Assembly (NCBI RefSeq): GCF_947305105.1
Contig: NZ_CAMZCS010000005.1
Span: 62,001 to 126,000, forward strand
Source: an uncultured Fibrobacter sp.
GTDB taxonomy: Bacteria > Fibrobacterota > Fibrobacteria > Fibrobacterales > Fibrobacteraceae
DNA: 64,000 nt
Reading direction: 5' to 3'
Positions 6,395 to 14,636 of this stretch are shown here, one piece after another. The first letter of the stretch is position 1. Each line of letters opens with the position of its first letter. Position numbers and translations under genes: made by a program. Below the pieces are notes generated by a model that worked only from the letters and a program-made list of their open reading frames with translations, made no database searches and was not told where the DNA came from.

Positions 6395-6466
6395 CCTCAA
6401 AGTGAGCGCGTTGCGCGAACGACCTCATACCTCAGAGGCGCCGTGCGCCGACCTCACTCCTATTTA
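6395..6466. repeat. Heptamer repeat with GC hairpins (dnaJ 3' flank)
   Basis: CTCATAC-CTCAGAG at 6424-6437 and CTCACTC-CTATTTA at 6453-6466 are 7-bp units in register, separated by the small hairpins GCGCGTTGCGCG and GGCGCCGTGCGCC. The last unit boundary (6460) is the first base of the dnaJ stop codon as read on the plus strand. Confidence 0.65.
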
Positions 6467-7602
6467 AACAGGTTCTTCATCTTCTCGAGGAAGGATTCTT
6501 CCTGTGCGGTTTCCTTGTCGTGACGCAGTTCCGCGAGCTTCTGGTAGAGTTCCTTCTCTTCGCGGCTCAGGTCCTTCGGGATTTCCACGCCGATGTTCAC
6601 GTAGAGGCTTCCACGGTCACCGCGCTTGTTCAGCGGGTACAGGCCCTGCTCGCGCAAGCGGAGAATGCTTCCAGCCTGGGTGCCGGCCGCAATCTTGATC
6701 TGCACTTCGCCACCGTCCAGCGTCGGGATGCGCTGCGTACCGCCAAGCACCAGCTTGTGGATGGGCACCTTGACTTCGCAATGCAGGTCGTCGCCTTCGC
6801 GGGTAAAGAAGTCGTCGGGCTTCTCGGCAATCACGGCCAGCAAGTCGCCGCAGGCACCGCCACGGGGACCGCAGTTGCCTTCGCCACGCAGGTTCAGGTA
6901 CTGCCCCTCGGCAACGCCCGCCGGGATCTTGATGGAAATCTCTTCGGTTTCCTGCACGCGGCCCTCGCCGTGGCAACGGCTACACGGATTCGCGATGACT
7001 TCGCCCATGCCGTTACAGGTGGGGCAGGCGCTCTCGGAAACCATCTGGAAGAACCCGCCCGACACGCGGCGCACGCGCCCCGTTCCATGGCAGGTATCGC
7101 AAGTCTTGATGTCCTGGCCGCCCTTGCCGTTACATTCGGTACAGGGGGTGTAGCGCTTGAGGCGCACCTTCTTGGTGCAACCCTCGAAGATTTCCTTGTA
7201 GCTGAGCGCCACCTTGATCTGCAAATCGTTACCGCGCGGAGGTCCCGCCTTGCGACTGCTCCTGCGGCCACCGCCGCCAAAGCCAAATCCACCACCGAAA
7301 ATATCGCCGAACTGCGAGAAAATATCTTCGAAACTGAATCCGCCACCGCCGAATCCGCCGCCACCAAAGCCACCGCCCGGGGCGTTGAAACCGAACTGGT
7401 CGTAGTTCTTGCGCTTTTCAGGATTCGAGAGAACGTCGTAAGCTTCGGCAGCTTCCTTGAACTTCTCTTCGGCTTCCTTGTCGCCCGGGTTCTTGTCCGG
7501 GTGGTACTTGATGGCAAGTTTCTTGTAGGCGTGCTTGATCTCGTCAGCACTCGCGTCCTTGCCGACACCTAGAACTTCGTAATAATCTCTTTTTTCAGCC
7601 AT
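6460..7602 (-). CDS. dnaJ: Chaperone protein DnaJ
   Basis: A 380-aa Hsp40 that delivers clients to DnaK and stimulates its ATPase. The J domain (residues 5-70) has the HPD motif, followed by a Gly/Phe-rich stretch (about 75-110), then four CxxCxGxG zinc motifs: [24 protein letters not shown] and CSRCHGEG, and the C-terminal substrate-binding sandwich. Type I DnaJ of normal length. ATG at 7602 is preceded by AAAGGC. It lies 216 nt downstream of dnaK in the same direction, with heptamer repeats and a terminator-like hairpin between them, so it may be partly uncoupled from dnaK transcription. Confidence 0.97.
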
Positions 7603-7620: not shown

Positions 7621-7710
7621 AGTGATTAGTAAACAGTGGTTAGTAAACAGAGCGGCTTCGCCGCAATTATAAATCCTAACTACTAATCACCAACCACTAA
7701 TCACTTATTT
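7621..7710. repeat. Inverted heptamer arrays around a GC hairpin
   Basis: AGTGATT, AGTAAAC, AGTGGTT, AGTAAAC run from 7621 to 7648 in exact 7-bp register; then GCGGCTTCGCCGC forms a hairpin; then CTAACTA, CTAATCA, CCAACCA, CTAATCA, CTTATTT (7676-7710) run in the complementary sense. The two arms are near inverted copies and could fold as one large stem. Confidence 0.8.
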
Positions 7711-7750
7711 TACAACAAAAGGATTGCCTCAATTTTAAGGCGAATCCTTT
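7711..7750 (-). terminator. Terminator downstream of dnaK
   Basis: AAAGGATTGCC (7718-7728) pairs with GGCGAATCCTTT (7739-7750) with one bulge; on the minus strand it is followed by a T-rich tail. Confidence 0.65.
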
Positions 7751-7783
7751 CATGTAATTAGTGGTTTTTGTCAATGACTAAAA

Positions 7784-9780
<1,997 letters not shown>

Positions 9781-9795
9781 TTACGCCCATACATA

Positions 9796-9812
9796 AGCAA
9801 AACCCGTGCCAA
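9796..9812 (-). promoter_or_regulatory. Sigma-54-type (-24/-12) promoter before dnaK
   Basis: On the minus strand the site reads TTGGCACGGGTTTTGCT, matching the RpoN consensus YTGGCACG-N4-TTGCW at every fixed position with correct spacing. The predicted start is near 9786, giving a 5' UTR of about 65 nt. I found no convincing sigma-70 promoter in the same interval. Use of RpoN for dnaK is unusual and unproven. Confidence 0.55.
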
Positions 9813-9841
9813 ATGCTAATAACTGGCAAAAAACGGCCATT

Positions 9842-9860
9842 TTGTTTCGTTCTGAAACAA
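9842..9860. promoter_or_regulatory. Perfect inverted repeat upstream of dnaK
   Basis: TTGTTTC-N5-GAAACAA, a 7-bp perfect dyad about 30 bp upstream of the -24 element. It is not a CIRCE element (TTAGCACTC-N9-GAGTGCTAA). It may be an operator or activator site. Confidence 0.5.
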
Positions 9861-9861
9861 G

Positions 9862-9887
9862 AAAAGCCCCTAAATCGGGGCGAAAAA
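9862..9887 (-). terminator. Hairpin insulating the dnaK promoter
   Basis: GCCCC (9866-9870) pairs with GGGGC (9877-9881); on the minus strand it is followed by TTTTCTTGTTT, so it could stop transcription arriving from the FISUMP side. Confidence 0.5.
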
Positions 9888-9930
9888 GGTCCGTTTCATA
9901 ATGGAACAGTGCTTTGGAAGAATGTGAAAA

Positions 9931-13810: not shown

Positions 13811-14485
13811 TTACTTCCCGGACGAGACAATCACCTTCGCCGTTTTCAGAATCTTGTTCTTGAGCTTGTAGCCCTTCTGGAACACGGTGACCACGTGGCC
13901 TTCGGGCACGGTCTCGCTGGGCTGCTGCATCAGGGCTTCGTGGCAGTTCGGGTCGAATTCGGCACCGGTCGGGTCGATTTGCTCGAGGCCCGCGTCGGTG
14001 AGAATCTTTGCGAACTGGTTGTAGATCATCTGCATGCCCTTCTCGAAGGCTTCCAGGTCCTTGGCCTTGTTTTCGCTTGCGAAGGCGCGCTCGAAGTTGT
14101 CCTGCACTTCGGAGAGTTTTTCCAGGAGCTTGCCGTTAGCGGTCTCGATAAGTTCGAGCTGTTCCTTGGCGCTACGGCGGCGGAAGTTGTCGAATTCGGC
14201 CATCAGGCGCAGGTTACGGTCGTTGGCGGCAGCAAGTTCGGCCTTGAGCACCTCGGTTGCTGAGCTTGTCGAAGCATCGGCAGATTCTGTAGATTCGGGA
14301 GCCTGGTCAGCGGGCTGGTCTGCGGCATCAGCGGGTTGCTCGGCGGCAGCTTCGGCCTGAGCTTCGTCAGCCTTGTTCGCCTCGGCTTCCATCTTCATTG
14401 CGTCTTCGGCGGCCTTGAGCACGTCCTGTTCGAATTTTGCCTTTTCTTCTGCGGTTGGTTCCTGTTCGTTTTTATCTTCAGCCAT
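13811..14485 (-). CDS. grpE: Nucleotide exchange factor GrpE
   Basis: A 224-aa GrpE, which releases ADP from DnaK. An unusually long, low-complexity N-terminus (Ala/Glu/Asp-rich, residues 1-90) precedes the conserved coiled coil with RNLRLMAEFDNFRRRSAKE and the beta-wing domain ending ILKTAKVIVSSGK. ATG at 14483-14485 gives the expected MAEDKNEQE start; the frame continues 14 codons upstream without a better site. Part of the variable N-terminus (DASTSSATE) is encoded by a dispersed GCTTCGACAAGCTCAGC element. dnaK and dnaJ lie 4 kb downstream on the same strand. Confidence 0.95.
   Translation of the reverse strand: MAEDKNEQEPTAEEKAKFEQDVLKAAEDAMKMEAEANKADEAQAEAAAEQPADAADQPADQAPESTESADASTSSATEVLKAELAAANDRNLRLMAEFDNFRRRSAKEQLELIETANGKLLEKLSEVQDNFERAFASENKAKDLEAFEKGMQMIYNQFAKILTDAGLEQIDPTGAEFDPNCHEALMQQPSETVPEGHVVTVFQKGYKLKNKILKTAKVIVSSGK
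14255..14280. repeat. Dispersed repeat inside grpE
   Basis: The reverse complement contains ATGCTTCGACAAGCTCAGC; related copies flank a hairpin after fba (21479-21546). In grpE it stays in frame within the low-complexity N-terminus. Confidence 0.55.
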
Positions 14486-14548
14486 TTTAAATTGCCTTAT
14501 TTGATTGCCCGAAAAAATGCTGGGCATCTGTTTTACATTTTCGACCCA

Positions 14549-14577
14549 AATTTAGCAAAAAATATGCCAAAGGTAAA
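14549..14577 (-). promoter_or_regulatory. grpE promoter with overlapping sigma-54-like element
   Basis: -35 TTTACC (14572-14577), 17-nt spacer, -10 TAAATT (14549-14554). The spacer itself reads TTGGCATATTTTTTGC, a degraded -24/-12 match with correct spacing. The sigma-70 reading is preferred. Confidence 0.45.
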
Positions 14578-14636
14578 GTATGGGGTTAGGGCAGGTGTAC
14601 GCTCAAAAAAGTTTTATTTTGAAACGTTGCGGCCTC

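Follow-up and report, generated by a model that had tools for sequence, protein, structure and literature searches.

Transcription of dnaK and other chaperone genes is usually ascribed to sigma-32 or to HrcA/CIRCE (or to HspR or CtsR), and sigma-32, HrcA and HspR are themselves controlled by chaperones in other bacteria. The Fibrobacter system described here shares its target genes with HrcA/CIRCE and sigma-32 control, but these operate through a repressor or a dedicated sigma factor, neither of which was detected in Fibrobacter. Among sigma-54 activators (bEBPs), PspF answers envelope stress and PrpR propionate metabolism; both share with the Fibrobacter candidate the AAA+ activator with a Fis-type HTH, but differ from the chaperone regulon in targets and signals. 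PrpR-type prpB promoters additionally share the GTTTC-N5-GAAAC dyad found at the Fibrobacter chaperone genes, and PrpR shares a TLWR helix with the candidate activator. Sigma-54 promoters of groEL, groES, grpE, dnaK, dnaJ and ibpA have been predicted computationally in Planctomycetota and Bacteroidota (Carrera-Reyna et al. 2025, PMC12316311), a survey that likewise places core chaperone genes under predicted sigma-54 control outside Pseudomonadota. In the available parts of its main text, Fibrobacter or Fibrobacterota, HrcA and CIRCE go unmentioned and neither an activator nor an activator site is named, while the claim of sigma-54-dependent grpE and groES in B. thetaiotaomicron cites a Blattabacterium genome paper. 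In Myxococcus xanthus, the histidine-kinase-linked, NtrC-like regulator HsfA activates the heat-shock gene lonD (HsfB-HsfA; PMC9109919); HsfA works as a phosphorylated response regulator and controls lonD together with secondary-metabolite genes, whereas the Fibrobacter candidate has a degenerate receiver and, as predicted targets, core chaperone genes. Given these predictions and HsfA, sigma-54 chaperone promoters are not wholly new. A partial literature search, whose coverage makes the absence of reports weak evidence, found no relevant Fibrobacter-specific paper on sigma-54, heat shock or HrcA, and no report of a full sigma-54 chaperone regulon in Fibrobacterota with an enhancer and a dnaJ-linked candidate activator. 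We consider it likely that dnaK in Fibrobacter is transcribed by sigma-54 polymerase, and that a dedicated NtrC-family bEBP acting at the dyads drives a chaperone regulon that replaces HrcA/CIRCE or sigma-32 control.

The window, that is, the whole stretch of 64,000 nucleotides that was analysed, carries dnaK (Hsp70) on the minus strand at 7819–9720 (Pfam HSP70, E=3.7e-266), followed downstream by dnaJ at 6460–7602 on the same strand (Pfam DnaJ domains). As the initial annotation had recognized, the minus-strand sequence upstream of dnaK, TTTGGCACGGGTTTTGCTTATG, contains TGGCACG-N4-TTGCT at 9811–9796, and this -24/-12 element, TGGCACGGGTTTTGCT (9796–9811, minus strand), is an exact instance of TGGCAC-N5-TTGC(A/T) with the -24 GG and the -12 GC of a sigma-54-dependent promoter. 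The pattern TGGCACGNNNNTTGCW occurs once in the window against 0.07 expected by chance, and a perfect site appears in 6 of 100 shuffles. The upstream dyad TTGTTTC-N5-GAAACAA, reported in the same annotation, is found as an exact TTGTTTC-AGAAC-GAAACAA at 9842–9860 and is a probable bEBP site, while an imperfect dyad that had been overlooked (TGTTCC-ATTAT-GAAACG, 9892–9908), 49 bp upstream of the proximal one, is a probable second activator site. The transcription start predicted from the sequence, at 9784–9786, agrees with the position of about 9786 proposed earlier and lies within a segment (9777–9788, minus strand) carrying a recurrent GCG(A/T)AAA initial sequence. The lack of an obvious sigma-70 promoter or CIRCE element was also borne out: a consensus scan between 9650 and 10250 found no sigma-70-like promoter, on which ground a sigma-70 promoter for dnaK was rejected, and CIRCE was found neither anywhere in the window nor at the Fibrobacter loci, the sole match lying in G052, a member of family f6. 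An RNA thermometer in the dnaK leader was rejected as well, the fold being no better than that of shuffles (z = 0.34), and the leader has no relevant Rfam match. Separately, we note a terminator-like hairpin, GCCCCGATTTAGGGGC, with a T-rich tail between the two dnaK dyads (9866–9881), filler of GTGATTAGT/GTGGTTAGT-like repeats in the dnaK-dnaJ gap (7622–7812; 7 of the 9 matches in the window, 0.12 expected), in place of which relatives have other low-complexity filler, and a lipoprotein with a Fib_succ_major domain near the dnaK region.

The architecture of this promoter is retained throughout the genus. TGGCAC-N5-TTGCT precedes dnaK in all 20 Fibrobacter genomes, each a species, for which the dnaK start was retrieved, and the proximal dyad is kept with at most two mismatches in 19 of these species and with three in the other. 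The distance from the start of the proximal dyad to the sigma-54 element is 48 bp in 11 species, 37 or 38 bp in eight and 27 bp in one, so that, relative to the longest spacing, the dyad is nearer by none, one or two turns of the helix, as expected of a protein that contacts polymerase from one face of the helix. In most species a second copy of the dyad lies about 49 bp upstream of the first, and conservation in the upstream alignment is concentrated in the dyads, around -24/-12 and in the ribosome-binding region. Placement upstream, as at dnaK, grpE and groES, tandem copies and helical phasing are typical of bEBP enhancers. Across 50 aligned Fibrobacter sigma-54 promoters, of nitrogen and heat genes alike, GCGAAAA or GCGTAAA recurs exactly at the predicted +1 (positions 11–16 counted from TTGCW carry C, G, A, A, A and A in 37, 43, 31, 41, 39 and 33 promoters), a motif that is, by its predicted position, a conserved initially transcribed sequence. 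One Fibrobacter genome (G007, 85% complete) has two full dnaK copies (G007:C38:3449-5347 and G007:C22:9903-11801), each with an upstream dyad, which may represent a duplication or a mixed assembly.

In the 72-contig assembly of the source genome (G000), exact TGTTTC-N5-GAAACA dyads are present at dnaK and htpG, and dyads with one mismatch at six places, one of which is groESL, where a weaker second dyad lies beside it. Dyads with at most one mismatch adjoin exact sigma-54 sites at dnaK, htpG and groESL; by chance, three of the eight dyad places would come to lie this close (within 150 bp) with a probability of about 7e-8. A count of consensus sites, proposed in the initial annotation, gave 13 exact sites in G000, 11 of them intergenic; these precede dnaK, groESL, htpG, clpB, hsp20, glnB and gltB, together with genes for a type III glutamine synthetase (glnN), an RpoD-like sigma factor, spoVG and an lptC-like gene (names other than DnaK were assigned by eye from sequence). 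In five other Fibrobacter species there are 96 exact -24/-12 sites, against 10 for a reversed control pattern, and chaperone genes recur among them. Over the six species, the dyad (at most two mismatches) accompanies 15 of 15 sigma-54 promoters of dnaK, groES and htpG but 2 of 75 other sites (Fisher 3e-15), although the p-values overstate the strength, if not the pattern, because related species enter the shuffles and the Fisher test as if they were independent cases. A dyad matrix trained on dnaK sites alone gives scores of 19–26 at groES and htpG, 12–14.5 at grpE, 5–18 at clpB, 5–14 at hsp20 and below 7 at nitrogen genes, and the nitrogen promoters among the Fibrobacter sigma-54 sites examined are without the dyad. 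The strong sigma-54 sites of clpB and hsp20 are predicted to place both genes under sigma-54 promoters; their dyads are weak, and with such scores their use of TGTTTC-N5-GAAACA is uncertain. In every species examined at htpG, the dyad lies on the downstream side of the predicted +1, at 51 bp from the TGG.

Several further sigma-54 sites deserve mention. In each of the six Fibrobacter genomes checked, the gene of the RpoD-like sigma factor (270–282 aa) is preceded by a perfect sigma-54 promoter (G000:C2:177617-177632, L044; also L219, L221, L259, L280 and L283), which suggests a cascade from sigma-54 to a sigma-70-family factor. A near-consensus site, TGGCAGGGTTTTTGCT (L075:1424-1439; G000:C1:324011-324026, plus strand), faces a TPR-like gene and points away from groESL, with the groESL dyads just downstream of it, and is possibly a divergent sigma-54 promoter. 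In several Fibrobacter species, exact sites also precede genes read by eye as purF-like (L243, L271, L227), dapF-like (L234, L230) and acetolactate-synthase-like (L258, L231).

Upstream of grpE (13811–14527, minus strand; Pfam GrpE), whose true start is probably the ATG at about 14485, giving a MAEDK-type start as in G027, lies the sigma-54 element TGGCATATTTTTTGCT (14554–14569, minus strand), preceded by a degenerate dyad, CGTTTCAAAATAAAACT (14610–14626), with three mismatches and a matrix score of 14.5 against a 99% background of 13.1. The initial annotation had described a weaker -24/-12 match inside a sigma-70 spacer; the site is real, but the sigma-70 promoter is not among the scan sites and, by eye, matches at only 4/6 and 4/6 positions. 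In two related species grpE is preceded by sigma-54 sites at least as good, which argues against a merely fortuitous match within a sigma-70 spacer.

The gene rpoN, whose absence had earlier been named as a finding that would overturn a sigma-54 reading, is present in G000 (G000:C3; Sigma54_DBD, E=6.6e-50), and that reading stands, supported by rpoN, by six bona fide bEBP genes in the same genome and by the genus-wide conservation of promoter and dyad. No RpoH-type sigma factor was found, three group 1/2-like sigmas scoring 126–152 bits against a cut-off of 323. Likewise, hrcA was found in none of the three Fibrobacter genomes tested (G000, G003 and G036) and, besides f1, in none of the members tested from families f2, f7 and f10; it is present in f3–f6, f8 and f9.

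The protein that binds the dyads is most likely a bEBP with an ISR(S/A)TLWRK recognition helix, encoded in the source genome on G000:C4 (L206:6664-8187). In a tree of 65 bEBPs, which included only a few of the 27 bEBPs of G052, it belongs to a clade (support 100/96) that is represented exactly once in every one of 14 genomes sampled across the phylum. All 14 members have an AAA+ sigma-54 interaction domain with a GxxTG loop (GSYTGS in G000) and a Fis-type HTH (HTH_8). The canonical phosphorylatable receiver, a mark of the response-regulator subgroup of NtrC-family bEBPs only, is not found; rather, the phospho-acceptor column holds E, A, S, N or D, two members have no receiver, and a Pfam receiver match is obtained for 9 of 14, falling below the cut-off in G000. 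The gene follows dnaJ in f2 (G038), f3 (G041, G044), f4 (G040), f5 (G051) and f6 (G052, with the order groES-groEL-hrcA-grpE-dnaK-dnaJ-bEBP), and adjoins the dnaK region in G039. In Fibrobacter it lies away from the chaperone genes, behind genes for a histidine kinase and for a single-domain response regulator, and a search for a dyad at this gene was negative; autoregulation of bEBP genes was rejected more generally, the only TTTC-N5-GAAA dyad near those of G000 lying in the gene downstream of L005. G057 encodes only two bEBPs and has the dyad at dnaK, its other bEBP carrying a TLRNKL helix not found in Fibrobacter. In addition, the helix of Stenotrophomonas PrpR (GVSRTTLWRWL) is close to that of the candidate activator (GISRATLWRKL), and the PrpR gene adjoins a prpB promoter with the same dyad as the Fibrobacter chaperone genes.

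Elsewhere in the phylum, the dyad together with sigma-54 or sigma-54-like elements precedes grpE (f4, f7), dnaK (f6, f10) and groES (f7), some -12 elements outside Fibrobacter deviating from the consensus (as does TTGAT in G057 and G059), while f3 and f5 possess dnaK-dnaJ-bEBP clusters with no matching dyad found at dnaK. A scan for the dnaK arrangement in 84,980 species returned 40 matches: 32 in Fibrobacter or Fibrobacterales, six in Duganella or Stenotrophomonas, one in Victivallis and one in Clostridium. All 29 Fibrobacter matches with enough downstream sequence lead into dnaK, as does that of Victivallis, and the six in Duganella and Stenotrophomonas lead into a gene read from its sequence as prpB, the classic sigma-54/PrpR target. 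In Victivallis, a member of another phylum, a CGTTTC-N5-GAAACG dyad and TGGCACGCTCTTTGC stand before dnaK (60.7% identical) in a MAG (L316:2730-2790), with groEL downstream of dnaK. The best match to the activator there, L338, differs in its helix (ISRRTLHRKL) and has a receiver of the canonical type, and orthology to the Fibrobacter activator is therefore not claimed.

From the sites, their conservation and their confinement to promoters of chaperone genes, together with rpoN and the conserved, dnaJ-linked candidate activator, we infer activator-DNA binding, heat induction and a sensing step. Sigma-54 RNA polymerase would wait as a closed complex at dnaK, groESL, htpG and grpE until the NtrC-family bEBP, bound to the tandem TGTTTC-N5-GAAACA dyads at dnaK, remodels that complex with ATP; the same activator would drive groESL, htpG and grpE and, through weaker sites, probably clpB and hsp20. 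Its activity may be set by chaperone availability or another protein contact, possibly with free DnaK/DnaJ, which we favor because the receiver is degenerate or absent and the gene is encoded beside dnaJ. Alternatively, in Fibrobacter the upstream histidine kinase and single-domain response regulator may add an input. Counting against the activator model are the position of the Fibrobacter gene, which is not chaperone-linked and at which no dyad was found, the dnaK-dnaJ-bEBP clusters of f3 and f5, in which a matching dyad at dnaK was not detected, the weakness of the dyads beside the strong sigma-54 sites of clpB and hsp20, and the htpG dyad, whose location would also suit a repressor.

The htpG dyad speaks for a scheme in which the dyad is the operator of an unnamed repressor that replaces HrcA and a different bEBP activates the sigma-54 promoter, and perfect palindromes suit repressors too. 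We nevertheless regard a repressor as quite unlikely, since the dyads lie upstream at dnaK, grpE and groES, since tandem copies and helical phasing at several distances are seen, since the dyad resembles a PrpR-type site, and since bEBPs can also act from downstream sites. A repressor aside, the dyad could be bound by another bEBP, such as the NifA-like GAF proteins L001, L005 and L006, in which case the chaperones would follow nitrogen or redox status and not heat. TGT-N11-ACA differs little from TGT-N10-ACA, the NifA site, and glnB, gltB and glnN have sigma-54 sites in the same genome, but the dyad-free nitrogen promoters speak against such binding, no NifA-like protein was found in G053 or G057, which both have dyads at chaperone genes, and linkage to dnaJ favors the TLWRK clade, so that we judge it very improbable.

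The two remaining alternatives concern the promoter itself. Basal DnaK is usually needed, and a weak sigma-70-type promoter might supply most dnaK transcription, the sigma-54 promoter being a minor, condition-specific addition. Such a promoter could escape a consensus scan, since those of Fibrobacter are poorly known, but none was seen between 9650 and 10250 and the well-conserved upstream blocks are those named above; we consider this unlikely, and it would be compatible with sigma-54 control of the regulon. That the dnaK site is a chance match has a negligible probability: taken alone, a single perfect site in 64 kb would be only modestly unlikely, but genus-wide invariance, phylum-wide recurrence and the regulon-wide association refute it, conservation being decisive.

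More speculatively, a pseudo-receiver AAA+ activator encoded in the grpE-dnaK-dnaJ cluster and set by chaperone availability might constitute a third mode of heat-shock control, ancestral to Fibrobacterota, that displaced HrcA in several lineages, the similar dnaK promoter of Victivallis suggesting that such control may extend outside Fibrobacterota; we regard this as possible but doubtful. If the sigma-54 regulon proposed here is correct, activation by sigma-54 and its own ATP-dependent activator, and not derepression or sigma stabilization, would amount to a different heat-shock logic, and would explain how Fibrobacter copes without HrcA. It would also give an entire phylum, with major cellulose degraders among its members, a specific gene as its candidate heat-shock activator. 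In Fibrobacter, a fibre-digesting gut bacterium, the main chaperone genes appear to be turned on by sigma-54 acting with a dedicated, ATP-driven activator.
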